DNA of 47,108 nucleotides from Planktothrix sp. PCC 11201 (GTDB lineage: Bacteria; Cyanobacteriota; Cyanobacteriia; Cyanobacteriales; Microcoleaceae). Shown piece by piece: positions 8,667-46,600 of the stretch (positions within the stretch are counted from its first letter, which is position 1; every line of letters starts with the position of its first letter). Location of the stretch: assembly GCF_900009135.1 (NCBI RefSeq), contig NZ_LT797700.1:113423-160530 (forward strand), in the 5' to 3' direction. The notes beneath the pieces were generated by a model that was not told the origin of the DNA, did no database searches, and saw nothing but the letters and a program-made list of their open reading frames with translations. The position numbers were made by a program, and so were the translations under genes.

Positions 8667-10160
8667 CTAACGGACAGTTAATAAATACTGACCTCGACCT
8701 GTTTTATCATAAGCATTGACCACCACTCTATACCGACCTGTGGCGGGTAAAGTCACCCGAATTTCTGCGTTTTTATCAGACTGACTGGCATCATCATTTT
8801 CAGCTATTAATTTTCCCTTGGGATCAAATAATGCCAAATAGGAATCAAAATCCTGACTTTCTGAGCGAATTAAAATAGACTGTCCCTGTTTTCCTTCAAA
8901 AGTATATTCATCATACAAACTGCCATCGGATGATAAAACAGAATCCTGATTTTCTAAGACTCCTGTTTCATTTAAAATAAGTTGACCGGTTCCCGAACTG
9001 GAGGAGGATTCTGTTGCTTTCAAGCGTAAACGATAGACTCCTGCCTCTCCTGCTTCATAGGAATTGACTAATAAAAGATAAGTTCCATCCGTTGGTAAAG
9101 TGGTAACAATTTTGGCGTTTTTCTCTCCTCCCCCATCATCATCTTGGGCTAACTCCTCTCCATCTTCTGTTAACAAAATTAAATAGGAATCCACCTCGTT
9201 ACTACTCATTTCAATTGTTACCTGTTGACCCGCTTTTCCCTCAAAGGCATAAACATGATAAAAACTATTATCAACGGGTAAAACTTCATCCCCCTGTTTC
9301 AAAGTATCCGTAACTTCCGGGCCATTTAATTGAATCTGTTTGGCATTTTCCTTTTCAAACGCCGGGGTTTCCGCCGTCGGGGTGCGAGATGCCCGTCCCT
9401 CTTTCACCTCTTGCAAAAATGGCGGAACCCGGTCAACGGAAATGGCAAAACCAATACCAATATTGCCTCCGCCCTGACCCCGGGTAAAAATCGCCGTATT
9501 CACCCCAATTAATTCCCCAGCACTGTTGAGCAGGGGGCCACCGGAGTTTCCAGGATTAATTGCCGCATCGGTTTGAATTAAATTACGGTTTTGGTCTAAA
9601 CGACTAACAATTCCTACGGTTAAGGTGTTTTGGAATTGGCCAAAGGGGTTACCAATGGCAAAAGCCCGTTGACCCACTTTCACCGAATTGGGACGGGCAA
9701 TGGGAATGGTGGGTAAGTTTTGAATATTGTGAATTTTCAGCACGGCTAAATCAAGTCCGGGTTCTCCAAAGGCGATGACCTCCGCTTCTAACTTGCGGCC
9801 ATCGGCCAGGGTGACGGTGACGGTACCTCCGCCGGATACCACATGGGCGTTGGTTAACACGAAACCATCGGAACTAATAATGGTTCCACTGCCATTGGTT
9901 TTTTTGGTATCAATGGAAACCACGGCGGGACTTGCCTTTTCATAGACTTTAATATTGGTTTCTTCTTCTGTTTTATCGGCTGCCAAAATTAGGGGAGAAT
10001 CAAAGCCGTAATTAGAGATTAAATCCTTAGAAGGAAGGGAGGATGGGGGGACAGGAGAAATTGTTTTTGAGAGGTTGGCATTGGCAACCGGAACATGAAT
10101 TAAGGCTCCAATGGTCAACAGTCCAAATGTTGTTAATCGCAAAGATAAAAAATTCATCAA
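8667..10160 (-). CDS. HtrA/Deg-like trypsin-family serine protease with two PPC domains, no PDZ
   Basis: At 497 residues this has a signal peptide at 1-28 (hydrophobic core, ending VPVANA) and a trypsin-like domain at about 70-265. The catalytic triad is visible: His106 in TNAHVV, Asp137 in GLDLAVLK and Ser206 in NPGNSGGPL. These are the motifs of bacterial HtrA/DegP/HhoA proteases of the periplasm or lumen. Usual family members carry one or two PDZ domains after the protease. Here there are two PPC domains instead (about 285-380 and 395-497; both have VDSYLILL or FDSYLALF, and YRLRLK or YLLTVR ends). The second is very similar to the single PPC of the neighbouring downstream gene. Export to periplasm, thylakoid lumen or outside is expected. 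PPC domains are often cleaved off in secreted proteases, so they may control activity or localisation; this is inference. Confidence 0.9.
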   Translation of the reverse strand: MMNFLSLRLTTFGLLTIGALIHVPVANANLSKTISPVPPSSLPSKDLISNYGFDSPLILAADKTEEETNIKVYEKASPAVVSIDTKKTNGSGTIISSDGFVLTNAHVVSGGGTVTVTLADGRKLEAEVIAFGEPGLDLAVLKIHNIQNLPTIPIARPNSVKVGQRAFAIGNPFGQFQNTLTVGIVSRLDQNRNLIQTDAAINPGNSGGPLLNSAGELIGVNTAIFTRGQGGGNIGIGFAISVDRVPPFLQEVKEGRASRTPTAETPAFEKENAKQIQLNGPEVTDTLKQGDEVLPVDNSFYHVYAFEGKAGQQVTIEMSSNEVDSYLILLTEDGEELAQDDDGGGEKNAKIVTTLPTDGTYLLLVNSYEAGEAGVYRLRLKATESSSSSGTGQLILNETGVLENQDSVLSSDGSLYDEYTFEGKQGQSILIRSESQDFDSYLALFDPKGKLIAENDDASQSDKNAEIRVTLPATGRYRVVVNAYDKTGRGQYLLTVR

Positions 10161-18843: not shown

Positions 18844-21800
18844 ATGGGTACTCTACCTCAAATTCATCGCACCTCCAAAAAAAATTTTTTGAATTGGGAT
18901 TTTTGCTTTAGCAAAAATCCCAATTCCATCGTCATCATTGACCCCACAGTATCCGATAGTCAACACATAGTCCAAGGCATCAAACCAGGCACGGCCACCT
19001 ACATCCTCGAAAGCCAGCCTGATGCTATAGAGCAAATCACCTCACTCCTAGCTCAACATACAGGCATCGAAGCCCTACACATCATCTCCCACGGTAGCCC
19101 CGGCTGCCTCTACCTGGGCAACAGCACCCTAGAATTGGGCAACCTAGAAAAATATCGCTCCCAAATCCAAGAATGGGGTATCGCCCATCTCTATATATAT
19201 GGATGTAACGTAGCCGCCGGAGACGCGGGTACGGAATTTATCGAGAAGTTACACCAAATTACCGGGGCGAATATTGCCGCCAGTAATACCCTCACCGGGA
19301 ATAGTGATTTAGGCGGTAACTGGGAATTAGAGGTAAAATTAGGTGAGATAGCGCCACCTACCGTCCTCACATCAGACCTGCAATTAGCTTATCAAGGAGT
19401 ATTAGGTGCGGGGGACTTAGACACCACCTTTAATACCACAGGGAAAGTGACCACTGATTTTGGCTTTAGCGACGTGGGTTCTGCCGTGACCATTGATAGT
19501 AATGGCAAAATCCTGGTGGCGGGGACTTCTAACTTTGACTTCGCCCTAGCACGATACAACATTAACGGCACCCTTGATACCAGTTTTAATGGCACAGGGA
19601 AAGTGACCACCAACATCAATAGTATCGACAGTGCCAATGCCATAACCATTAGTAATGGCAAAATCCTGGTGGCGGGAAGTTCTAACTTTGACTTTGCCCT
19701 AGCACGATACAACAGTGACGGCTCCCTTGATACCACTTTTGGGACTGGGGGAAAAGTGACTACTGATGTTTTGGGCCTTCTTTATGGCGACAGTGCCAAT
19801 GCCATAACCATTGATGGTAGTGGCAAAATCCTGGTGGCGGGGTATGCTTACAATGGTATCAACAATGACTTTGCCCTAGCACGATACAACAGTGACGGCA
19901 CCCTTGATACCAGTTTTGGGACTGGGGGGAAAGTGACTACCAACATCAATGGTCTCGACAGTGCCTCTGCCGTGAGTATTGATGGTAATGGCAAAATCGT
20001 GGTGGCGGGGTCTACTGGCATTACTAACACCACCAATGACTTTGCCCTAGCACGATACGACAATACCGGCGCCCTTGATACCACTTTTGGGACTGGGGGG
20101 AAAGTGGTTACTTTTATCAGCATTACCAACGACCTTATCAATACCATGACTATTGATGGTAATGGCAAAATCCTGGTGGCGGGGCAAGCTAGCAATGGTA
20201 CCAACAATGACTTTGCCCTAGCACGATACGACAATACCGGCACCCTTGATACCAGTTTTAATGGCACAGGCGAAGTGCTCACTGATTTCAACGCTGCCAA
20301 CGACCGTGCCAATGGCATAACCATTGATGGTAATGGCAAAATCGTGGTGACGGGGGCTGCTTTGAATGGTACCAACAGTAACTTTGCCCTAGCACGATAC
20401 GACAATACCGGCACCCTTGATACCAGTTTTAATACCACAGGCAAAGTGACCACTGATTTCAACGGTGCTGCCGACAATGGCGCTAAGGTCGCCATTGATA
20501 GTAATGGCAGAATCGTGGTAGCGGGGTATGCTAACAATGGTACCAACAATGACTTTGCCCTCGCCCGTTATGGTACTCCTGATATTGCCGTCACCACACC
20601 CGCCGTCTCCGCCGCCACAGTCGGCCCCAGTAATACCAATAAGTTGCTATACCAAGTCAACTTAGCTATCACCGAAGTTAACGCCAACCTCACAGGTTTA
20701 ACCCTAACTACAGGCGGGACTTATCAAGCCACTGATGTCTCCAACTTCAAATTATGGTATTCGGCTGATAGCACCTTTGATGCAGCAACAGATACCCCAC
20801 TATCAAGCCAAGCACCCGTAGCAACAGGCGGTAGTCTAGCATTCACTGGGTTAAATCAAGCTATTACCAGAAGCACCACTGGTTATTTATTCGTAACTAC
20901 TGATATCTCAGCATCGCCTACCAATGCTGATACCATCAATTTAGCAGCACCCACCTTAAGCAATATCACCTTTGATAGTGGTGTGAAAACCGGGACACCC
21001 GCAGCTAGTAATAGTTTAACCATTGATGCTTTAGCACCAGCCATACCAGTTATTACCACTACCCCCACCACAACCAACAAAACCACTCCCACTCTGACTG
21101 GGACTGCGGAAGCTAATAGTACAATTAATATTTTGCAAGGTACAACTTCCCTAGGTACAGCCACAGCAGATGCTTCCGGTAACTGGAGTATTACCACCAC
21201 CACCGCCTTAACTCAAGGTGCTAACTCCTTAACAGCCACAGCTACAGATACCGCAGGTAATATTTCTGCTGCTTCCAGTCCAGTTATCATCACCTTAGAT
21301 ACCGTAGCTCCCACCGTCCCAACTATCACCACCACTGGTACAACTAATAGTCCCACTCTTACCGGAACTGCGGAAATTGGTAGTACAGTTAATATCTTAC
21401 AAGGTACAACTTCCCTAGGTACAGCCACAGCAGATGCTTCCGGTAACTGGAGTATTACCACCACCACCGCCTTAACTCAAGGTGCTAACTCCTTAACAGC
21501 CACAGCTACAGATACCGCAGGTAATATTTCTACCGCTTCCAGTCCAGTTATCATCACCTTAGATACCGTAGCACCCGCCGTCCCAACTATCACCACTACC
21601 CCCACCACAACCAACAAAACCACTCCCACTCTGACTGGGACTGCGGAAATTGGTAGTACAGTTAATATTTTACAAGGTACAACTACAGTAGGTACTGCGA
21701 CTACCGATGCTTCCGGTAACTGGAGTCTTACCACCACAGCTTTAACTCCAGGTGCTAACTCCTTAACAGCCACAGCCACAGATACCGCCGGAAATACATC

Positions 21801-23205
21801 TACCGCTTCCAGTCCAGTTATCATCACCGTAGATACCATAGCTCCCACACCGAGTCCTACAGTAGCTCCCACACCGAGTCCTACGGTAGCTCCCACACCG
21901 AGTCCTACAGTAGCTCCCACACCGAGTCCTACGGTAGCTCCCACACCCCAACCTACGGTTACTCCCACACCCCAACCTACGGTTACTCCCACACCCCAAC
22001 CTACGGTTACTCCCACACCAGAACCTACGGTTACTCCCACACCAGAACCTACGGTTACTCCCACACCAGAACCTACGGTTACTCCCACACCAGAACCTAA
22101 ACCAACTCCCACACCCAAACCTACGGTTACTCCCACACCCCAACCTACGGTAACGCCCACACCAGAACCTACGGTAACTCCCACACCCCAACCTACGGTA
22201 ACTCCCACACCCCAACCTACGGTAACGTCCACACCCCAACCTACAGTAGCTCCTACACCCCAACCTACGACCGTATTTGATCCCACGAATTTTATTGTCG
22301 GGCTCAAGTTAAACACAACCAAACCCAGTGGAAAAGCCAAACAGGGGACAAGTGATGATGACCTAATATTCGGCACAGATGAGAATAACTCGATTAACTC
22401 AGGTGCGGGAAATGATCAGGTGTACGGGTACAAAGGCAATGATTACCTCGATCTCGGTAGCGGAGATGACATCGCTCATGGAGGTAAAGAAGATGATTAT
22501 ATTATTGGTAGTGAGGGCAACGACCTCATTTCTGGAGATGAAAGCAAAGACATCCTAATCGGAGATGACGGTAATGACATCCTCTTAGGCGGTCAAAACG
22601 ATGACTTTTTACAAGGAGGCAATGGTGATGACCTGCTGTTTGGCGGTAAAAATGATGACTCCCTCCAAGGCGGTGACGGTAAGGACATCCTATTCGGAGA
22701 TGTGGGCAACGATATCTTAGAAGGCAATGGAGGTGATGACCTGCTCTTGGGTGGAGAAGACCAAGACACTATGTCTGGTGGTGCAGATAATGACAGCCTC
22801 TACGGCGGTCAAGCCAATGACCTTGTAGATGGAAATGAAGGCAATGATATCCTATTGGGAGATTTAGGAGATGATACCCTCGATGGTGGTGAGGGTAACG
22901 ATATCTTAACCGGAGGTCAGGGTAATGACTGGTTAATCGGAGCCTCTGGCGATGATACCCTAACAGGTGGTGCGGGTAATGACCGCTTCTATCTGGCCAG
23001 TAGTTTTGGGAATGAGCTAATTACCGACTTTACTAAAGGAGAGGATATTATCGCCTTAACCGGAGGTCTAACTTTTGAACAGTTAGAAATTACCTCTTCT
23101 AACGGCTCGACTCTGATTAAAATCGCCAGTAGTCAACAACAGTTGGCTCAACTGCTTGGAGTCGATAGTAGCTTGATAGGTAAGAGTAATTTTGTTCTAG
23201 GATAA
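18844..23205 (+). CDS. Giant mosaic surface/secreted protein: DUF4347, delta-60 repeats, Ig-like repeats, Pro-Thr stalk, RTX
   Basis: At 1453 residues, the domain order is as follows. DUF4347 at about 28-182 carries His83 in HIISHGSPG and Cys121 in [10 protein letters not shown]. Delta-60-type repeats at about 189-578 comprise seven units with [13 protein letters not shown], a beta-propeller-like array. An unassigned beta-rich domain spans about 579-732. Three Ig-like repeats of about 88 residues span 733-999 ([35 protein letters not shown]). A Pro-Thr stalk of PTVTPTPEP-type units spans 1000-1143. RTX/hemolysin-type calcium-binding nonapeptides ([11 protein letters not shown] pattern) span about 1165-1385. 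The C-terminal tail typical of type I-secreted proteins follows. No N-terminal signal peptide is present, which fits export by a C-terminal signal through a type I system. A role in adhesion or motility at the surface is the family-based guess. Start: AGGAAG lies 9 bases before the ATG. No transporter genes are nearby. Confidence 0.88.
18891..18926 (+). repeat. Perfect 16-bp inverted repeat inside the first codons of the mosaic protein
   Basis: GAATTGGGATTTTTGC (18891-18906), loop TTTA, then GCAAAAATCCCAATTC (18911-18926). In the mRNA it forms a stable stem-loop 47 bases after the start codon, directly behind an A8T6 tract. It encodes residues about 16-28 ([13 protein letters not shown]), just ahead of the conserved DUF4347 start. 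Confidence 0.9.
21841..22272 (+). repeat. Coding 18/24-base tandem repeats of the Pro-Thr stalk
   Basis: The unit encodes PT(V)(A/T)PTP(S/Q/E)P. Blocks of identical unit type (SP, then QP, then EP, then QP) show recent unit duplications. The opposite strand is open over about 900 bases only because the units are in frame on both strands. Confidence 0.95.
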
Positions 23206-31371: not shown

Positions 31372-31402
31372 AAAAAACCCCCCGGGGGTCACCGGAGGGG
31401 TT
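31372..31402 (-). terminator. Rho-independent terminator of the giant repeat-protein gene
   Basis: Read on the minus strand: AACCCCTC, an 11-base loop, GGGGGGTT and a run of T (AAAAAA at 31372-31377 on the plus strand). It starts 19 bases after the stop of the giant gene and precedes the kinase gene by about 100 bases. Confidence 0.7.
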
Positions 31403-31420: not shown

Positions 31421-34400
31421 TTAGGCTAAACCATTGTTAGTGGTGGTTGGGTTCAACAAACCTACACTGGCTTCATAGGAGAAGACATTCAAATAGTTCA
31501 CCTGTTCAATTGCAAGACCTGTATATTGAACTAAGGCTTGAGCATTAGCTTGTTTGAAGGCTGCCAAATCTAGTCCAGGATTTTTCGTTAAGAATTCATC
31601 GCTGAAAGGTTCGTGACCATCTAATAAACCTTTACCCACCATATAGGTGACAATTTGAGGATTTGTCAGTGCATCAGCCGACCCAACATTGTAGTAGGTT
31701 AAGACATCTTCTTGCACTTGAGGATCAGCAACGTATGCGTCGAAATCCTTCAACAATTCAGAAGGTTTGTTTCCTTTAATTAAACCTTCCCCGGTTGCAT
31801 AAACATACAACTCATCGTTAGAAAGTTGGGAATCTCCATTGGTATCAATTTTAGGTTTATTGGTCGCAAGATCATCGGCATATTGTTCTTGATACCAAAC
31901 TAAATCAACCGTTGGAGCCGTGCTAGAAATGTCTTTTTGATTTTCAGAAACGTAGTCAAAGACTTTCTTGGGATCAATATTGTAGACCTTTTCCTCACGG
32001 TAATTTTCTAACAAATCTTCCCCGCCTTGATTCACATAGTAGTCAAGATTGGTGTATTTTTTCCCATCTAAATCATAGGAAGAAGCTTGTTCTAGGATAA
32101 AGTCTTTGAGGAAAGCTTTATCAAGTTTTTTGAGTTCCTTGGGTTCGATACCAAAAATCTCGGACAGTTCTTTTTTGTGTTCCTTAACAAATCCATCCAC
32201 ATCCACAGGTGCGATCGCTTTTCCTTGCGGAATTGTCACGTCTAAAGCGTGTTGCAGGATCTCCGTATCTGTGACTTGTTCAATGGGTTTGTTGAGGGTG
32301 GTTTCTAACTCGGTTTTGTAGGTTTGACTATAGAATTTATAGTCAATTTCTGCCCCCAGAATCCCACCATAAACATAATCCGCGACCAAGGAATCATCGA
32401 GTTGAGCAACTGCCGATATATCAACGTTGTAATGGGTTGCCAGTTCCCCTTTGAAAGCCGTTTTTAGGTATTCTTTATCAACGAATTCCAGAGGATTAAT
32501 TCCTTGTTTAATTCCGTCGCTAAAGGCAAACTTAATAACATCTTTGTCGCTGATTTTATCAATTAGGTTGCCATTTTCGCTATGAACATCTTCGGGGTTA
32601 TCGAGAGGAGGAGCAACTTCGCCATCGAGAGGAGGAGTAACGCCATCGGGAGGAGGAGCAACTTCGCCATCGGGAGGAGGAGTAACGCCATCGTTGCTTG
32701 GGAAATAGTAATCAACAAGCTGTTGGGTGTAACCTTGCCGATAAGCGTCAACATTGATAGCGGTTAGTTGGATACTGTCATCCGGTGACACTTGTTTATA
32801 AGCATCGCTCAAAGTGATAGAAATGATGTCTTTGTCCGTCAGAGAATTAACATCTTTCTGGATTTTCAGATCAGTTAATAACTGCGTTTGTTGTTCAACA
32901 CTTAACTGGTCAAATTGATAACGCAGATAGTTGACATCCAATTGATTGTAGTCATCTTTCAACCAATTTAACGCCACCTGATCATCAACTGCAACGCTAT
33001 TAATCGCGCTTGTATAGGTGTCTCCGAGATAATCAAGAGCAAGATATTTATCAAGCTGAATACCCTGTTTAACTCCTTCACCATAAATGAATTGCTTGAC
33101 CTGTTGCAGAGTGATATTTTTGATATCGGTCACATCTGGATAGGCTGCTTTCAAAGCATCGGTATTGTCCTTAATGTACTGTTCATAATCAACAGGGGAA
33201 AGTTCCAGAGTTTGATTCTCTGTTTTTAACAAATCCTTGAAGTCAGGACTATAGACTAACTGAATGATTTGGGCATTTGTCAAGTCTTCAACGGTGGTGA
33301 ACGTTGCGTCTCCACTTCCTAAGAATTGTTTGACTTGATCTAAACTTACTTTTTGGTCAGTAATTAATTTTTCCAGTTGATCACTGACATATCCCACATC
33401 AATTGTTGACAGTTTTTGTGTAAAGGCTGCAAGGATTTGTTCGTTGGTTAGGGTAACAACATCTCCCGCTAAAACATCATTAACTGAAACACTATAAGCA
33501 CCCGCTAATTCCTGTGCGTAAAGGTGACGCACATAGTTATAGTCAGGTGTCTCCGTTTGTGTTAGTTTCAGAGCTTTATCTGCACCCAGTTTAGTGTTAA
33601 AGGCTTCGTTAACCACTAATTCTTGAACTTGTTCATTGGTTAACCCATCTAACGCTTGAACATCGGTAGTCAAAACACCATTAACATCTTCCAGGGTGAT
33701 CACATTGTTATCCAACAAATCTTTCAGTTGGAATTTCACATATTGTGGATCAAAGTCTGCCACTGGGCTAGTTGGTGGCACTGGCGCTGGAACTTCCGTC
33801 ACCGTAAGCTGTTGAATATATTGTTCAACCGTTACACCTGCGGCTGCAATTTTTTCAGCATCTGCGGTAGTGAAATAATCCTTAATTTGTTGTTCGGTAA
33901 ATTGAGTATCCGCAGGTAAACCGTATTTTGCTGACAGTTCAGTCTGATATTTAGAAATCAAGAAACCTAAATCTAAAGTATCAGGTTGAACTAACTCAAT
34001 ACTGTCTTCACCTAATGCGGTTTGCAAGTCTTTATTGAGTAATAATTCCGTCAGATTTGCGTCGGTAATTGCTGCTAAAGATTCAATCGGTGTAGTTAAG
34101 AATTGATTAACCGTATCGAGGGTAATTTTTCCGTCCGTAACCAACTGTTCTAGCTGATAACGACCATAAACTAAATCGATTTTAATGGGAGTACCGCCAT
34201 CGGTTGTACCACCATTATCCAGGGTAATCAGATTGGATTTAGTTAACCATTGTTGTGCTAATTCCGGTGTAACTTCAGCTTCAGTAACTTTGGCAAATGC
34301 CGCGATTTCTGCTGCTTTATTTTTAACGAGGTAGGTTAGGACTTGATCGTTAGAAACAACCTTGGTTGTATCACCCGTAAGCGAGGCAACATTCACCCCT

Positions 34401-37400
34401 AAAACTTCTGCTAAAGCGGGAGCAAAGGTGGCTTTGATATAATCCAAATTCGGGGGATCTTGAGACAGTTTAATTTCAACACCCGCGCCTAAAGCGGTCT
34501 TGAATTCACTGTTATTAATAAGGTCAATCAGTTGTTTCTTACTCAACAAATCAACGCTGGTAACGGTCGTTCCCAGAACTTGATTAATTTTATCTAAGGT
34601 AACAGTTCCCGCTTCAATCAAACCACTGAGTTGAAACTCAACATATCCAGCATCAACGCTAATATATTGACTAATCCATTTTTCAGTAACTTGATCACCA
34701 CTAACAATTGCAGCACCAAAAGTGTCGGTAACGTACCCTAAATCAATCAATCCTTCTACGCTAAACGCTTTAGCTTCAGGACTAAAAGCAAACTTGATAA
34801 TTTGCTGACTAGACAGTTCACTAATGTCTTTAACGTGGTAGGAATCTTTCAGCGCGGCTTCAAGTTCTTTACCGTATTTTTTGACATATCCATCGGTATC
34901 AAACCAATTGATTGTCTTAACATCAACGGTTTCCTGATCATGCAGATATTGGAGAATTTGTAAATCCGTGACTTTAGCGATCGCATCTACACCAAATGTC
35001 GCTTGAACATCTCCTGCAAATTTCACCCGGAAGTAGTCAGAATCAAGGTCATCAGACCAGCCACCAAAGACAATATCGAGTAGAACATTGGGATTTAATT
35101 CCTGAACAACGCTGACCTCAACACCATATTGAGACGCGATTTTTTCCGCGTATTCTTTCTTGTAGAATGCCAATCCATCTGCTGAGATAAATTCAGAAAG
35201 ATTGAGATTCAATTTTGAGGCTTCTTGGGTGACAAACTGATAAATTTGCGCTTGGGTAATTTCCGTAACCGCAGTTACACCATAAAACGCAATTAACTGT
35301 GATGAATATTGGGTACTGAACGCTGTTAAATCGAAAGTGACTAGGCTCTTTGCCGCATCAAACTTTTCATTGCTGAAAAAGTATTTTTTCAGATCGTCTA
35401 GGGTTAATTTTTTGGAATTTTTCCCTAAACTATCGGCATATTGTGTGAGTTCGTCTGCATATTTATCTAAGCAGAATTTCACATCAATAACTGGAGATTT
35501 ATCACCAAATAGAAAATCAATGATGTTTTCCGCTTTGATATCTGCTCCAAATTCAGCCGTTAAGACTTTACCATAAATTTCTTTATAGTATTCGACATCA
35601 ACGACTTCACTAATTTGCTTCAGCAGTCCGAGTTTCTTACCTTCACCCGATAGGAAACCTTTGATTTGTCCATCGGTTAATTCTTTAACATCTTTGACTT
35701 TAAAGAAGTCTTTGAGTTCTTTTTCCAGCAGTTTTTCGACTTTCTTAAAGTCAATGGGATTTCCAGTTAATCCCAATTCTTTGCCAATTCCCAGGATATA
35801 AACCTTGATTTTTTCATCCGTTAGGTTGGCAACTTCTTCCTCGGAAATTTTGAAATAAGCGGCTAACTGAGTAGCGTATTTAACGCGAGAGTATTCAACG
35901 TCAATGAGGTAATCTACATTGATACTTTCGAGAATATTTTCACTTCCAATTTCATTGGTTTGTGTGATGTCATATTTCTCGACAATTTTATCGAGATTCA
36001 ACTGTTTCACATAATCCAGACCCAGGAAGGGAGAAACGGTATGTCCGTTTTTAATTCCTTGTTCTTCAATGAAATTAAGAATTTGTTCAACGGACGGATT
36101 TTTTCCTAACCCAGCGACTAATTCTTTCCCATAAACAGCTTCTAAGTAATTTAAAGAAACTGTCCAAGAGGTATCGACGTTTTGTTCTGGTGGAACATTA
36201 TTAATGAACAGCAAAATCTGAAGATTGGGCAGAGCCAGGACTTGTTCAACGGAAATATTGAAGTAGGCTGCAATCTCTTTCGCGTAAACAACTTTGACGA
36301 AGTTAATATCAACGGTAGGTGAAGGATGGGTAATTACTTCAGATCCTTCTTTACTGTTGATAAATGCAAAGATTTGCTGATTACTAATGAGTTCTAAGCT
36401 CACCCCAAATTTAGCAACCAGTTCCACATTATACGTTGACCGAATGTAATTAAAGTCGATGGAACCTGAGAGTTGATCTCCACTTCCAATTCCTTCTTGG
36501 TCAAGATATTTTAAAATATCTTTGTTGGTGATTTTGTCAAGGGTTTTCTCAAGGAATTTCTCTAATTTTTTAGCATGATTTTTCTTGACAAAATCAAAAT
36601 CAATGAAGACAGAGGGACTGTTTCCTGCTTCTAAACCTACTCCACTAATATAGTTGAGAATCTGTACAAAAGTGAGATTGGAAACAGAGGCAACTTGATA
36701 GAAACTTAGTAGTTGTTGGCTATAAGCTTCTAGGTAACTCTTAATATCTACATAGGCTGAGGTATTAATCCCCAGCTTTAATCCATTTTCTTTGATGAAA
36801 TTGAGAATTTCACTATCTGTAATTTTGCTGAGATCCTCAACTTTTAAACCCGCTTTCAGTTCAACCCCATAGGTGATTTTAATATAGTCAAGATTGAACA
36901 ATTCTGAGGGAAGTTCCGCAGTTGGTTCTAGTGTGGGAACGGGTGTTGGTTCAACCGTTGGTACGGGTGTTGGTGTTGCGGTTGGTGCGGGTGTCGGTTC
37001 AACCGTTGGTACGGGTGTGGGTGTTGCGGTTGGTGCGGGTGTCGGTTCAACCGTTGGTACGGGTGTTGATGTTGCGGTTGGTGCTGCAGGTGTTGTGGTT
37101 GGTGCAGGTGTCGGTTCAACCGTTGGTATCGGTGCGGGTGTTGCGGTTGGTGCGAGTGTGGGTGTGGGCGTGGGTGCGGGTGTGGGTGTGGGTGCGGGTG
37201 CTGATAGCGATGCCTCAATAAATTGCTTGATTTGCTCAATACTAATTACTGAGAGGTTACTAACCTTAAATTGTTGCAGAATCTTAGTAACAGAAACGTT
37301 AGGATTGAACGGACGATTTTCCCCCAGACCAAATTCGAGAAAATGAGCGATCGCACTAATTTGACCTGACTTAACAGCCAACTTAATATCTGGGTTTGCT

Positions 37401-38035
37401 TCTAAATAATACTTGACATTCAAGAAGGACTTATTGCATTCTCGACCTTCAAATTGACCCACATTAAAAAAGTGGAGAATCGGATTGATTAGACCCTCTT
37501 GAGCTTGGACTGCAACATCAGGATTAAGTGCTAAATAATCTTTGAGTTTGAAGACAAAACTAAACTTTCGTGTTTCATCTATTCCCTGCTCCAAGAAGTG
37601 TTCACTAGCATTGGTCAAACCATCTTGAACAGCTTGCTTAACATCAGGATTAAGATTGAGATAGTCCTGAATATTAAATAGAGGATTCCAGGGACGGTTT
37701 TCACTCTGTCCAAAATCAACAAAATGTTCAGCAACACTTAAACCCTGTTGTTCAGCTACAAATTTGAAATCTACATTCAGCTTTAAGTATTCACGAACAC
37801 TAAATAGATTACTAAATTCCCGATTTTCATAAATTCCATAGAGCAGAAAGTGTTCTTCTGGTGTTATTAAGTTGGCTTCAACGGCTAGTTTAACATCAGG
37901 GTTGAATTTCAAATAGGCATCTTTATCAAAGATCTTATCTAGTTTCTTGAAGAATTTATCGGGTTTGTTGGCTAATTTGCCCAGTTTGTCACCCAATTTG
38001 TCTAATTCTTTTGAAAATTTGTTCAGGTCATTCAT
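31421..38035 (-). CDS. Giant repeat protein of about 2204 residues: NPDV-type repeats, Pro-Thr linker, two classes of novel helical repeats
   Basis: I chose the ATG at 38035 (MNDLNKFSKEL), which has AAGG 12 bases upstream; a TTG at 38068 would add 11 residues. A Lys/Leu-rich helix (1-36) comes first. Five units of about 46 residues follow with YL..NPDV..AV..G....HF...G..E.R (about 37-262), a motif known from large bacterial extracellular proteins. Next is a Pro-Thr-Pro linker (about 277-372). Then about 1800 residues of units built like D..YI...Y...L...F.V....LT..QI..FI, 46-75 residues each. In the middle a second class (Y...QL..L......TLD.V..FL) alternates with the first. A Pro/Asp/Gly hinge (PPPDGE units, plus-strand 32600-32690) and an EF-hand-like loop (31811-31846) are near the C-terminus. 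There is no signal peptide, membrane segment or enzyme motif. I know no family for the main repeats. A structural or surface role is inference. Confidence 0.8.
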   Translation of the reverse strand: MNDLNKFSKELDKLGDKLGKLANKPDKFFKKLDKIFDKDAYLKFNPDVKLAVEANLITPEEHFLLYGIYENREFSNLFSVREYLKLNVDFKFVAEQQGLSVAEHFVDFGQSENRPWNPLFNIQDYLNLNPDVKQAVQDGLTNASEHFLEQGIDETRKFSFVFKLKDYLALNPDVAVQAQEGLINPILHFFNVGQFEGRECNKSFLNVKYYLEANPDIKLAVKSGQISAIAHFLEFGLGENRPFNPNVSVTKILQQFKVSNLSVISIEQIKQFIEASLSAPAPTPTPAPTPTPTLAPTATPAPIPTVEPTPAPTTTPAAPTATSTPVPTVEPTPAPTATPTPVPTVEPTPAPTATPTPVPTVEPTPVPTLEPTAELPSELFNLDYIKITYGVELKAGLKVEDLSKITDSEILNFIKENGLKLGINTSAYVDIKSYLEAYSQQLLSFYQVASVSNLTFVQILNYISGVGLEAGNSPSVFIDFDFVKKNHAKKLEKFLEKTLDKITNKDILKYLDQEGIGSGDQLSGSIDFNYIRSTYNVELVAKFGVSLELISNQQIFAFINSKEGSEVITHPSPTVDINFVKVVYAKEIAAYFNISVEQVLALPNLQILLFINNVPPEQNVDTSWTVSLNYLEAVYGKELVAGLGKNPSVEQILNFIEEQGIKNGHTVSPFLGLDYVKQLNLDKIVEKYDITQTNEIGSENILESINVDYLIDVEYSRVKYATQLAAYFKISEEEVANLTDEKIKVYILGIGKELGLTGNPIDFKKVEKLLEKELKDFFKVKDVKELTDGQIKGFLSGEGKKLGLLKQISEVVDVEYYKEIYGKVLTAEFGADIKAENIIDFLFGDKSPVIDVKFCLDKYADELTQYADSLGKNSKKLTLDDLKKYFFSNEKFDAAKSLVTFDLTAFSTQYSSQLIAFYGVTAVTEITQAQIYQFVTQEASKLNLNLSEFISADGLAFYKKEYAEKIASQYGVEVSVVQELNPNVLLDIVFGGWSDDLDSDYFRVKFAGDVQATFGVDAIAKVTDLQILQYLHDQETVDVKTINWFDTDGYVKKYGKELEAALKDSYHVKDISELSSQQIIKFAFSPEAKAFSVEGLIDLGYVTDTFGAAIVSGDQVTEKWISQYISVDAGYVEFQLSGLIEAGTVTLDKINQVLGTTVTSVDLLSKKQLIDLINNSEFKTALGAGVEIKLSQDPPNLDYIKATFAPALAEVLGVNVASLTGDTTKVVSNDQVLTYLVKNKAAEIAAFAKVTEAEVTPELAQQWLTKSNLITLDNGGTTDGGTPIKIDLVYGRYQLEQLVTDGKITLDTVNQFLTTPIESLAAITDANLTELLLNKDLQTALGEDSIELVQPDTLDLGFLISKYQTELSAKYGLPADTQFTEQQIKDYFTTADAEKIAAAGVTVEQYIQQLTVTEVPAPVPPTSPVADFDPQYVKFQLKDLLDNNVITLEDVNGVLTTDVQALDGLTNEQVQELVVNEAFNTKLGADKALKLTQTETPDYNYVRHLYAQELAGAYSVSVNDVLAGDVVTLTNEQILAAFTQKLSTIDVGYVSDQLEKLITDQKVSLDQVKQFLGSGDATFTTVEDLTNAQIIQLVYSPDFKDLLKTENQTLELSPVDYEQYIKDNTDALKAAYPDVTDIKNITLQQVKQFIYGEGVKQGIQLDKYLALDYLGDTYTSAINSVAVDDQVALNWLKDDYNQLDVNYLRYQFDQLSVEQQTQLLTDLKIQKDVNSLTDKDIISITLSDAYKQVSPDDSIQLTAINVDAYRQGYTQQLVDYYFPSNDGVTPPPDGEVAPPPDGVTPPLDGEVAPPLDNPEDVHSENGNLIDKISDKDVIKFAFSDGIKQGINPLEFVDKEYLKTAFKGELATHYNVDISAVAQLDDSLVADYVYGGILGAEIDYKFYSQTYKTELETTLNKPIEQVTDTEILQHALDVTIPQGKAIAPVDVDGFVKEHKKELSEIFGIEPKELKKLDKAFLKDFILEQASSYDLDGKKYTNLDYYVNQGGEDLLENYREEKVYNIDPKKVFDYVSENQKDISSTAPTVDLVWYQEQYADDLATNKPKIDTNGDSQLSNDELYVYATGEGLIKGNKPSELLKDFDAYVADPQVQEDVLTYYNVGSADALTNPQIVTYMVGKGLLDGHEPFSDEFLTKNPGLDLAAFKQANAQALVQYTGLAIEQVNYLNVFSYEASVGLLNPTTTNNGLA
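31811..31846 (-). other. EF-hand-like calcium-binding loop in the giant repeat protein
   Basis: The twelve residues DTNGDSQLSNDE (about residues 2064-2075 from the ATG) fit the EF-hand/dockerin loop: Asp1, Asn3, Asp5, Gln7, hydrophobic Leu8, Ser9 and Glu12. It is the only such loop I saw in the protein. Confidence 0.6.
32750..34700 (-). repeat. Supra-repeat of two alternating repeat classes in the giant protein
   Basis: Class-B units begin (plus-strand position of the first Tyr) near 34642 (YVEFQLSGL), 34168 (YGRYQLEQL), 33745 (YVKFQLKDL), 33395 (YVSDQLEKL) and 32932 (YLRYQFDQL), about 350-475 bases apart. Each is followed by a class-A unit of the general D..Y....Y...L type. The four older units share a tail of ...L..A.G.....L.Q or L..S. 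The DNA of the units is diverged, so this is an old expansion. Confidence 0.75.
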
Positions 38036-38731
38036 GGTTTTTTCAACCTTGTAATCTATACGACACAATAACGGTATTCTTGCAGATCCATTCTGAAACT
38101 ATCGAACCGAATATCAATCAAGGATTGAATATTATTCGATTCTGATTGTTTTTTCTGCCCATATTCACTCTAAAACATTGATTTAAGATGGTTATGAATC
38201 CTTTATGAGAAAAATCTTAATTTTAGAGTTTTATCAGCTTATTTTTTTAATTTAAACGACAAAAACTTGCCCTATTTTTGTTTTTTAGGTGGACTTTTTG
38301 AAATTTAAACCACAAACTTTTTCTTTAACCCTTTTCAAAAATTAGGTTAAAGAAAGATAGTGATTAACTTTAATTCAAATCTCCATTGACTTTGTTATTC
38401 CTCACCCACTTAATTTTAGTATTCCCTTAGTTGAGGCAAGAGATAACAGTTTTTAAAATATTGTTAATAGCCTGACCCATAGACACAACATAGCCTGGCT
38501 ATTTGTAAGCAATAGATAGCTAATTTTCGCGCTTTTTCAAAAAAAATCCCCACCGGACTTTGCTTATATCCCAAAGTCACAATATTTGATCGTTAAATGT
38601 CCCTGATGAACCAACCGCAGATCGGATAAAACCAATAAAACCTATCCTGATCACTAAATCTGTCCCAATCGCTGGTTACGACAGGGTTACCGCCGTGGAC
38701 GTTCTGTTGAGTTCAAAAGTTCCCAGAAGTT
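38036..38731. other. Long AT-rich gap between the giant gene and the OmpR-type regulator gene
   Basis: This is about 700 bases without a plausible gene on either strand. The left part must hold the promoter and leader of the giant gene (minus strand); the right end is the 3' flank of the regulator gene. The DNA is AT-rich with several T or A runs (for example 38236-38290). I see no tRNA, no clear terminator for the regulator and no strong inverted repeat. Such a long leader ahead of one large gene might carry regulation that I cannot read. Confidence 0.5.
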
Positions 38732-39400
38732 TCAAGACACCAGACGATAACCCATCCCCCGTACCGTTTCAATCCGTTGACCCCCTAACTTTTTACGCAG
38801 ATAACCCACATAAACATCAACAATATTCGAGCCTGGATCATAGTCATATCCCCAAACCTGATCCAATAGTTGTTCCCGACTCAACACTTGACCCGGATGG
38901 CGCAAAAACGTTTCTAACAGTTGAAATTCCTTAGCCGATAGAGTAATCGGTGTTTCCCCCAAACAGGCTTGACGGGTATATAAATCCAGTGTAATCTGGC
39001 CAACAGTTAAAGCCTTATCTTCGTTACTCATCAATGGGGGATGATGTCGCAAACGAACACGAATCCGAGCTAAAAGTTCTGCAAATCGGAAGGGTTTAGT
39101 CACATAATCATCTGCACCCCCCTCTAATCCTGCTACCTTATCCGTAATATCATCCCGGGCGGTCAAAATAATAATCGGAATTTGTTCTCCCTGACCCCGT
39201 AATTGTTCTAAAACTTGAAACCCATCTTGATCAGGAAGTCCCAAGTCGAGAATCAATAAGTCAAACTCATGGGCGAGGGCTTTTTCTATAGCTTCCTGTC
39301 CATTGCGGGCCAAAGTTGTGATAAATCCATTCGCTCGCAGTCCCTTTTCCAGAAAGGAGGCAATTCGGGGTTCATCTTCAGCAATGAGAATTCGACTCAT
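38732..39400 (-). CDS. OmpR/PhoB-type response regulator
   Basis: The likely start is ATG 39400 (MSRILIAEDEPRIASFLEKG, AGGTA upstream); the frame stays open 22 codons further. At 222 residues, the receiver domain (1-120) has the acidic pair Glu/Asp in IAEDEP, phosphoacceptor Asp in LLILDLGLPDQDG, Thr in IILTARDD and Lys in DDYVTKPF. A winged-helix DNA-binding domain (about 128-222) has LSAKEFQLLETFLRHPGQVLSREQLL, IVDVYVGYLRKKLG and the terminal IETVRGMGYRLVS. These are all standard for OmpR-family regulators. No histidine kinase gene is directly beside it on the same strand, so its partner is unknown. The 3' end is not followed by a clear terminator. Confidence 0.92.
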   Translation of the reverse strand: MSRILIAEDEPRIASFLEKGLRANGFITTLARNGQEAIEKALAHEFDLLILDLGLPDQDGFQVLEQLRGQGEQIPIIILTARDDITDKVAGLEGGADDYVTKPFRFAELLARIRVRLRHHPPLMSNEDKALTVGQITLDLYTRQACLGETPITLSAKEFQLLETFLRHPGQVLSREQLLDQVWGYDYDPGSNIVDVYVGYLRKKLGGQRIETVRGMGYRLVS

Positions 39401-39990
39401 GCGGTCATACCTAGGATGCTTTAAAACGTAGATGCGGATTCCTAACTCACAATCGAATTTTAACATAGACAGGACTTACGCAGCTACACTATATTTAGAG
39501 TAGCCAGGGTTAAGAATAGCATTTTCTAGTGGGACTTAGATATTTTCTCGTCGCCAAAGGGCTAAAACCCTTAAATTAATAAATACTCTTGGTTATCAAA
39601 TATTCACTGTTGGCGTTAAAATTGCGACATTTAGCGAGGGAGTTGAAAGAGAAAAAAATCTGGGAAATGTTCAATCAATACAAAAACATAAGTCGATCAT
39701 AGATATAACCTCTTACTCAGGTATGCGTCTAATTATTCCTAGCTTTCAAAAACTTGCCCTGCGTGCTATTCTCGTGTTTTCTTTTGTCATACAAATTTAG
39801 GATTAACGGGGTGGTTGTCTTTACGAAATGGACACAGAGCGATTAATAAAGTAGCAAGCCAATTACAAAACGAGATTAGCGATCGCATTGAGCAAGAACT
39901 ATAATTCTATCAGAATCATCAAAACCTTAATAGTATTTTAAAGTTCTTGCTGATCAAAAATAACCATCAATAATTAATATAAGTAAATTT
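39401..39990. other. Gap with a kinase gene remnant upstream of the RR-GGDEF-EAL gene
   Basis: This is a 590-base divergent gap. At 39472-39490 it has CAGGACTTACGCAGCTACAC, a dispersed-repeat word seen in a variant (CAGGACTTAGGCAATTACAC) at 45181-45200. The right half is the pseudogene remnant at 39723-39904. The middle shows only a short AAGGG/CCCTT palindrome (39557-39572). The promoter of the RR-GGDEF-EAL gene is not obvious. Confidence 0.5.
39723..39904 (+). pseudogene. Remnant of the N-terminus of a dCache sensor kinase
   Basis: One frame from ATG 39723 reads MRLIIPSFQKLALRAILVFSFV then IQI-stop (39798). The next frame picks up at 39800 as GLTGWLSLRNGHRAINKVAS then QLQNEISDRIEQEL-stop (39902). 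Joined, this matches the start of the hybrid kinase at 41946-45143 ([21 protein letters not shown], then [22 protein letters not shown] and RIEQNL). So it is a paralogous sensor-kinase start with a frameshift, a small deletion and stops, and the rest of the gene is gone. It reads into the RR-GGDEF-EAL gene, which suggests a former kinase-regulator operon. Confidence 0.65.
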
Positions 39991-45370: not shown

Positions 45371-46600
45371 TTGGATATGGTAACGGTTTGGATTGGGAAT
45401 TTGGCTTGGGGAGTGGGTTCTATCGTCGGAGCAGAAATGGTAAGGGATCTTTATCATGTCGCGGCTCATGTTTTCCCGCCCTTAATTCGTTTACACAATT
45501 GGCATCATCGGGTATTCCGCCCAGATTTAACTCCCGTGAGTCAGGAAATTTATCGCCAAGCCCATTGGTATAATGATGTCCCCGAAGCCGGGGTGATGTT
45601 CAGTTTCAGTTTGATATTTCTGGCGATCGCCCATATTTACACCCCCGAACACCAGGGATTTGCCCTTCTCGGTTGTCTTTATACCCTCAGTTTCCTATTC
45701 TCCGCCATTGCCCGAGGTTTGGGAATTCCCAATGCGGATCAATTGACGGATTTGACCCATACTCCCGGGGAATTTGACCGTCCTCCCGCTCCTTGGATGG
45801 TGAATCGAACTTACCATTGGCGGCATCATTTTGATAATCAAAATGCCTATTTTTGTGGAACTTTGACTTTATTAGATAAAATCATGGGAACGGCACTTTC
45901 ACTCAAGGGAAAAACCGTTGCTGTGACTGGAGCATCGGGAACTCTCGGACAAGCTCTTTTATTTCATCTCCATGCTCAAGGGGCAAAAGTTCTGGCTTTG
46001 ACCTCCGGTGACCAACCCTTGAGTTTAACGGTTGAGGGGGAAACAATCCCGATCAAAACCGTAACTTGGCAAGTCGGACAGGAACAACAATTAGGGGAGT
46101 TATTGCAAAAAGTAGATATTTTAATTATTAATCATGGAATTAATGTTCACGGTCAAAGGACTCAAGATGCGATCAGTCAATCCTATGAGGTGAATACGTT
46201 TTCCGGTTGGCGTCTATTAGAATTGTTCCTGAGTACCGTTAAAACTAACGCTGATATTGCTAAAAAGGAAGTTTGGGTGAATACATCGGAAGCAGAGGTT
46301 GGGCCAGCTTTAAGCCCCCTCTACGAACTGAGTAAACGGACTTTAGGAGATTTAATTACCCTGCGTCGTTTGGATGCACCCTGCGTGATTCGTAAATTAA
46401 TTTTAGGGCCATTCAAAAGTAACTTAAACCCGATTGGGGTGATGTCTCCTAACTGGGTTGCTAAACAAGTGATTAAACAGGCTCAAGCAGATGTTCGTAA
46501 TATCATTGTTACGATTAATCCTTTAACTTTTATTGCTTTCCCGATTAAACAATTCTGGGTTTCTACTTATTTTAAATTGTTTAGTCGCCAGCCTAATTAG
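45371..46600 (+). CDS. Bifunctional sterol desaturase-like / short-chain dehydrogenase protein
   Basis: AAGGTG is 7 bases before TTG 45371 and 13 before ATG 45377, so the TTG is a realistic start; both give nearly the same protein (409 or 407 residues). Residues about 20-170 resemble the fatty-acid hydroxylase/sterol desaturase superfamily: membrane segments with His-rich motifs (LYHVAAH, LHNWHHRVF, QAHWY, TYHWRHHFDNQNAYF) that would bind a di-iron centre. Residues about 178-400 are a Rossmann SDR domain: VTGASGTLGQALLFHL (NAD(P)-binding), INHGINVHG, the VNTSEAEVG strand, and the catalytic YELSK (Tyr-x-x-x-Lys). NCBI annotates such fusions as bifunctional sterol desaturase/short chain dehydrogenase; the reaction is not known to me. 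An oxidising-reducing pair on one membrane lipid is a reasonable guess. Confidence 0.85.
   Translation: MDMVTVWIGNLAWGVGSIVGAEMVRDLYHVAAHVFPPLIRLHNWHHRVFRPDLTPVSQEIYRQAHWYNDVPEAGVMFSFSLIFLAIAHIYTPEHQGFALLGCLYTLSFLFSAIARGLGIPNADQLTDLTHTPGEFDRPPAPWMVNRTYHWRHHFDNQNAYFCGTLTLLDKIMGTALSLKGKTVAVTGASGTLGQALLFHLHAQGAKVLALTSGDQPLSLTVEGETIPIKTVTWQVGQEQQLGELLQKVDILIINHGINVHGQRTQDAISQSYEVNTFSGWRLLELFLSTVKTNADIAKKEVWVNTSEAEVGPALSPLYELSKRTLGDLITLRRLDAPCVIRKLILGPFKSNLNPIGVMSPNWVAKQVIKQAQADVRNIIVTINPLTFIAFPIKQFWVSTYFKLFSRQPN

Follow-up and report, generated by a model that had tools for sequence, protein, structure and literature searches.

A giant acidic protein of Planktothrix built of tandem NPDV-related repeat units, with a predicted EF-hand-type loop near its C-terminus

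Introduction

Very large proteins have been described in cyanobacteria, SwmB being the giant protein of swimming Synechococcus, to which the protein reported here can be likened by description only. NPDV repeat proteins belong to a common superfamily with this giant protein, as judged from an in-register profile match and from the classical NPDV units at its own N-terminus, and their predicted helix pattern is the same as that of its diverged units, with low confidence on the NPDV side. The diverged units differ from NPDV repeats in that they lack the NPD, the invariant H and the E.R, are longer and far more numerous, come in a long subtype as well, and form a module that contains an EF-hand loop. 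EF-hand and dockerin modules have, as in the giant family, a 12-residue loop with D at position 1 and E at position 12, but the loop of the family is usually single and sits inside a repeat array. The RTX-type cyanobacterial surface proteins oscillin, SwmA and Sll1951 are, as far as the account in PMC3034196 goes, repeat-built and equipped with a calcium motif like the giant protein, which in contrast has helical units and no RTX nonapeptide (GGxGxDxU); the likeness is again one of description only. The same account characterizes S-layer proteins as acidic and without cysteines (PMC3034196), and the giant protein is likewise acidic and Cys-poor.

The gene was analyzed in a stretch of 47,108 nucleotides from Planktothrix sp. 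PCC 11201 (contig NZ_LT797700.1), hereafter the window. An original prediction made from the letters of this stretch had described the product as a protein of helical repeats belonging to no described family.

Results

An intact and conserved giant gene

The giant protein is real, intact and conserved. Its gene was found exactly where the original prediction had placed it, and it is read from the minus strand (Table 1). It had been argued that the gene is not a decaying frame, and indeed a match without internal stop was found in 7 of the 9 other genomes of the genus; altogether the gene is present in 8 of 10 Planktothrix genomes and missing from G001 and P. agardhii NIES-204 (G009). The long leader and the terminator claimed for the gene were also recovered: within the leader, conservation among 8 Planktothrix loci extends over the last ~450 bases, with the commonest base in 69-86% of rows, and a terminator search 3' of the gene returned 2 overlapping sites against a shuffle mean of 0.2. 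In its own genome the sole full-length match of the protein is itself, the 8 other matches involving either the NPDV region or the Pro-Thr linker. Scanning the 2,204-aa protein with Pfam and NCBIfam gave no model at its cut-off, in agreement with the claimed absence of a described family or enzyme motif, and no Pfam or NCBIfam model was reported for the NPDV part. Signal peptide and membrane segment are absent, as predicted, when judged by Kyte-Doolittle hydropathy, the top 19-residue average being 1.35 in the whole protein and not exceeding 0.72 in the N-terminal region.

Table 1 Features of the giant gene, its product and its flanks in the window.
Feature	Residues	Coordinates	Strand	Basis or remark
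OmpR-type response regulator, upstream		38732..39466	minus	same strand; such a neighbour in 11/34 loci
Leader between response regulator and giant gene		38036..38731	minus	696 bases
Whole gene, 2,204 aa		31421..38035	minus	ATG at 38035, stop ends at 31421; orthologues
Five classical NPDV repeats	36-244	37304..37930	minus	NPDV model, each iE <= 2.8e-15
Partial unit in gap between NPDV repeats and linker	248-277	37205..37294	minus	unit model, iE 5.4e-4
Pro-Thr linker 1	278-378	36902..37204	minus	similar linkers elsewhere in the genome's proteins
15 consecutive short A-type units	380-1089	34769..36898	minus	unit model
Mixed stretch of A-type and long B-type units	1127-1786	32678..34657	minus	unit models
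B-type unit 1	1127-1192	34460..34657	minus	
B-type unit 2	1286-1350	33986..34180	minus	
B-type unit 3	1428-1493	33557..33754	minus	
B-type unit 4	1545-1614	33194..33403	minus	
B-type unit 5	1699-1759	32759..32941	minus	weakest of the five
Linker 2, PPPDGEV-type	1787-1822	32570..32677	minus	no unit match inside
Conserved C-terminal module of units	1823-2204	31424..32569	minus	
Unit holding the EF-hand loop	2042-2093	31757..31912	minus	family-trained unit model, iE 5.1e-13
EF-hand-type loop DTNGDSQLSNDE	2064-2075	31811..31846	minus	alignment and regex
Terminator-like hairpin and T run		31378..31399	minus	22-43 bases beyond stop

About 39 tandem units in one protein

By its profile matches the protein is a tandem array of about 39 units that all belong to one repeat superfamily, namely 5 classical NPDV repeats and about 34 diverged units. 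A unit model that started from eight units of the window protein and was refined iteratively on 16 family ORFs recovered 33 units at domain iE <= 0.5, including the partial unit in front of the first linker, and 29 units at iE <= 0.01 in a larger search. A model free of Planktothrix sequences (617 unit rows) recovered 32 units at iE <= 0.01 (E 6.7e-196), while 500 shuffled copies of the protein gave 2 matches in total with the iterated model. Two of the five long units escaped the iterated model, and we therefore set the number of units after the linker, some of them partial, at about 34. The long units (61-70 aa) form a subclass, as a model built from any four of them recovered the fifth (E 7.6e-22 to 9.4e-6), and 30 of the 34 family ORFs contain one or more long B-type units. 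The five NPDV units, the Pro-Thr linker behind them and the diverged array with its subclasses thus all stood as originally described; the prediction had overlooked the EF-hand loop, the breadth of the family and the C-terminal module that linker 2 sets apart.

Another gene of the window (18844-23205, plus strand) encodes a 1,453-aa protein with DUF4347, DUF5122, Ig-like and RTX repeats, the Pro-Thr linker of which is 63-69% identical to that of the giant protein.

The diverged units are relatives of NPDV repeats

The diverged units are relatives of NPDV repeats and not classical ones. The signature residues NPD, H, G and E.R are confined to the five N-terminal units, and the column make-up of the diverged units has the same start as that of NPDV units (D, then Y-Y, then E), with a T..Q helix cap corresponding to T..E in NPDV. 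Direct comparison of the two unit profiles with hhalign was suggestive at best: the probability was 17% and the score 14.1, which at least 1 of 200 permutations exceeded; with all 34 ORFs these values were 24% and 14.8 (best of 150 permutations 12.9), and a two-unit version reached a probability of 4%, under the best of 150 permutations.

We also searched 386 genomes of the phylum with the C-terminal profile A6, which consists of diverged units only. This profile matched NPDV arrays as well, in G017 (E 5.4e-8) and G318 (E 6.2e-7), with further weak matches in G288 and G316; its f47 matches were excluded because they lie in frames of just 169-209 aa and each of them spans the EF-hand portion of the profile. 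Against the NPDV arrays of L134 and L135, A6 scored 29.6 and 28.8 bits, compared to a maximum of 8.8 in 400 shuffles, and the alignments stay in register across four to five units. The L135 units matched by A6 are strong NPDV units, three of them at iE <= 1.7e-7, and those of L134 are the less well scoring stretch of an array that is clearly NPDV; with a single-unit model, L134 gave no unit and L135 a single one (iE 9.8e-5). One of the matched NPDV proteins carries RTX (E 1.6e-47) and the other CAP and PPC domains. The in-register match supports the proposal, already made in the original prediction, that these units, at least those of C-terminal type, diverged from NPDV repeats.

A predicted calcium-binding loop close to the C-terminus

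Near the C-terminal end of the protein we predict one calcium-binding site. In the A6 alignment its D and E are invariant and twelve residues apart, and a regular expression placed the canonical loop (D at 1, E at 12) at a distance of 125-161 residues from the C-terminal end in 32 of the 34 ORFs, the two exceptions being L118, which has T at position 8, and the main ORF of L047, which is without the C-terminus. Two adjacent loops are present in L106, L112 and L114, and L107 and L111 have one extra regex match each elsewhere in the protein; per protein 1.09 loops were observed versus 0.08 in shuffles. The top PDB match of the profile was a calmodulin construct, with an E-value of 2.9e-5 summed over four loops and a best single iE of 1.3. 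Pfam EF-hand_1 matched 8 of 24 members at E <= 0.1 (best 2.8e-4), the window protein not being among them, and Dockerin_1 gave weak matches in 2 of 24. By eye, the unit motif LT..QI coincides with positions 8-13 of the EF-loop.

Predicted structure of the units

Two structure models were computed with the window protein and four near orthologues, other unit stretches of the same proteins being supplied as extra rows. Their mean pLDDT was 51 and 53, with blocks of 80-92 in the best units, where the pattern was helix(7)-kink-helix(8)-loop-helix(10-12); the same pattern was seen in the low-confidence NPDV part. We therefore predict with modest confidence that each unit folds in this way, and an all-helical extended rod or string would follow from it. 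Fold searches with the predicted models gave nothing usable.

A family with a variable array and a conserved C-terminal module

Residues 378-2204 found a match at E <= 1e-5 in 39 of 388 genomes of the order, and the C-terminal module was found in 5 of 386 genomes across the phylum, all from the same order. From these matches a subset of 34 loci was compared, namely the window and 33 loci from 31 other genomes. The family plan is a variable N-terminal part, 3-5 NPDV repeats and, in unsplit members, 13-58 units. NPDV repeats are absent in L104 and L120, both of which end at a contig end, and in 12 members no linker separates them from the units. Compared with that of the window, the C-terminal modules of the other members show 27-86% identity, and the most conserved part of the protein is itself made of units. 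When every ORF of 80 aa or more in the 34 loci was considered, at least 3 units or at least 2 NPDV repeats were seen in family ORFs only, counted with the second halves of two split genes.

The split genes (L046, 5196-11602, and L047, 8850-12423) lie in two ORFs in different frames with the break in a low-complexity linker (DGETP or D/S runs), which reflects either slippage or an assembly error. An extra N-terminal domain is present in L106, L112 and L114, and the L106 domain shares 48% identity with a portion of a plasmid protein of Limimaricola whose gene lies two genes from an exosortase E gene. In L002, L025 and L026 the NPDV repeats begin about ten residues behind the first Met, L002 having a PhoD-like phosphatase domain.

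Arrays of 55 and 58 units are present in L104 and L111, and the L104 array starts with near-identical neighbouring units, suggesting recent tandem growth. A surface adhesin that binds a partner (cells, mats or particles), in which the repeat number sets the reach and which is not a structural coat, would account for the range of unit numbers among unsplit members, for the near-identical tandem units of L104 and for linkers that differ between members. The scanned members contain no known binding domain, however, and it is the units that make up the most conserved part; we consider an adhesin quite doubtful.

The distribution also bears on the suggestion that the protein is a gas-vesicle-associated filament. 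GvpA was matched in 28 of the 39 carriers compared to 81 of 349 non-carriers (Fisher p 2.4e-9, kinship ignored), an association that speaks for such a filament. But 11 of the 39 carriers have no GvpA match, 7 of these being at least 98% complete, and G001 and G009, both of the genus, have GvpA yet are without the giant protein. The gas-vesicle suggestion is thus not supported and seems very improbable.

P. paucivesiculata PCC 9631 (G007), which carries the gene, is given as benthic in a table of PMC5259702, and P. agardhii PCC 7805 as planktic in the same table. Of the two genomes without the gene, G009 matches a plasmid of NIES-204 of equal length at 100% over the first 6,000 bases, and the two plasmid-like contigs of G001 that were compared are nearest to P. 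agardhii plasmids. A link of the gene to lifestyle would draw on two named strains only, PCC 9631 with the gene and NIES-204 without it.

Gene neighbours and the location of the protein

The neighbouring genes include a Ser/Thr kinase cluster of 15 members, 13 of them 94-501 bases downstream of the family gene on the same strand and 2 further off, with a GUN4-type assignment in all 3 that were scanned (L115, 11187-12563, is one example). A close downstream kinase in 13 of 34 loci favours a cytosolic location, in which the protein would be an intracellular helical scaffold switched when the adjacent kinase phosphorylates its Thr-rich N-terminal region. Such a scaffold would agree with what was seen in 13 kinase loci, 8 of which encode an N-terminal extension with a Thr content of 18% or more (one extension is just 20 residues long), with the lack of a hydrophobic export signal in the members and with the presence of NPDV repeats on glycosyltransferases too. 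A Thr-rich extension is also found in L110, however, which has no kinase match, and is missing from the window and from two other Planktothrix loci examined, and such a kinase neighbour is lacking in 7 of the 8 Planktothrix loci.

The window's own downstream histidine kinase is common to 3 loci. Elsewhere in the window, the ORF at 45371-46600 (plus strand) has a fatty acid hydroxylase match, below cut-off, in its first half and a short-chain dehydrogenase in the other, and that at 8667-10160 (minus strand) encodes a trypsin-like protease with PPC domains.

The 34 family ORFs are acidic and Cys-poor. Their pI is 4.05-4.99 (4.45 for the window protein) compared to a median of 5.67 for neighbour ORFs (n=224), and it is below 4.3 in 28 of 34 members versus 3.1% of the 224 neighbours. 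Their Cys content is 0-0.59% against a neighbour median of 1.03%, the window protein having 2 Cys in 2,204 residues, and in none does the Kyte-Doolittle average over 19 residues exceed 1.59. At least 2 strict RTX nonapeptides occur in 7 of the 34 members, where they form linker-like runs and may reflect nothing more than low complexity, and Pfam RTX matches were obtained in L103 and L104.

NPDV repeats are also carried by PhoD phosphatase and subtilase ORFs, and by ORFs with PPC below cut-off. In 34 plasmid records the best NPDV place was annotated as RTX, M10, calcium-binding, Ig-like, DUF4347 or DVUA0089 in 14 cases, as a glycosyltransferase in 7 and as a methyltransferase in 1, the other 12 being unannotated or hypothetical. 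Glycosyltransferases and methyltransferases are usually cytosolic. The acidic, Cys-poor make-up, the RTX runs and several of the NPDV partners point outward, against an intracellular scaffold, which on balance we hold to be unlikely.

Neither the 13 neighbour families examined nor the 11 neighbours scanned in the window included a type I exporter. In 4 of 34 loci, of which the window is not one, two ABC-2-type transporter genes stand upstream of the family gene and in opposite orientation; the pair of L053 (3301-5275) consists of ATPase and permease genes, and similar pairs are found in L043, L044 and L046.

Discussion

Our preferred reading is that the giant protein is an exported fibre or coat protein at the cell surface, calcium-clamped at one end, and we give it a probability of somewhat under one half (about 0.45). 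The outward location is inferred from the acidic, Cys-poor make-up, the absence of a strongly hydrophobic stretch, the RTX runs and several of the NPDV partners. For a surface protein we also counted the repeat and NPDV homology, the position of the EF-hand loop, the ABC-2-type pair, the likeness of the L106 N-terminal domain to a protein encoded near an exosortase gene and the presence of the gene in PCC 9631 as opposed to NIES-204. Against it we counted the NPDV repeats on glycosyltransferases and a methyltransferase, the kinase neighbour, the lack of a type I exporter and of RTX in the window protein, and furthermore the Pfam score of the window EF-hand (above E 0.1), the weak single-loop PDB match and the poor structure models.

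As an exported fibre or coat protein, the acidic, Cys-poor chain would leave the cell unfolded by a non-Sec (type I-like) route, without a signal peptide as far as hydropathy tells, and would fold outside the cell. The single EF-hand may then bind calcium and lock or dock the C-terminal end, while the NPDV end and the Pro-Thr linker would fasten the rod to the surface or act as a spacer there. The outcome would be a fibre or coat suiting mat- or surface-living filaments; a sheath, S-layer-like or gliding fibre, as named in the original prediction, is plausible.

A bolder version, which seems to us rather unlikely, makes the protein an all-helical counterpart of RTX proteins. The array would consist of NPDV-derived, silent helix-loop-helix units, and the live C-terminal EF-hand would start folding or join molecules in the calcium outside. 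NPDV repeats, array and EF-hand would then be of one lineage, provided that LT..QI is a remnant of, or precursor to, EF-loop positions 8-13.

In the literature we found no report of a giant diverged-NPDV architecture with an EF-hand loop, and the distribution of the family and the conserved EF-hand loop near its C-terminus are new here. In all, a giant family of the order of Planktothrix gains a definition in the form of a profile, an architecture, a distribution and a tie to NPDV repeats. If the protein is a surface fibre, it would be a candidate for one of the envelope layers, so far poorly known, that underlie gliding, sheaths and life in mats.
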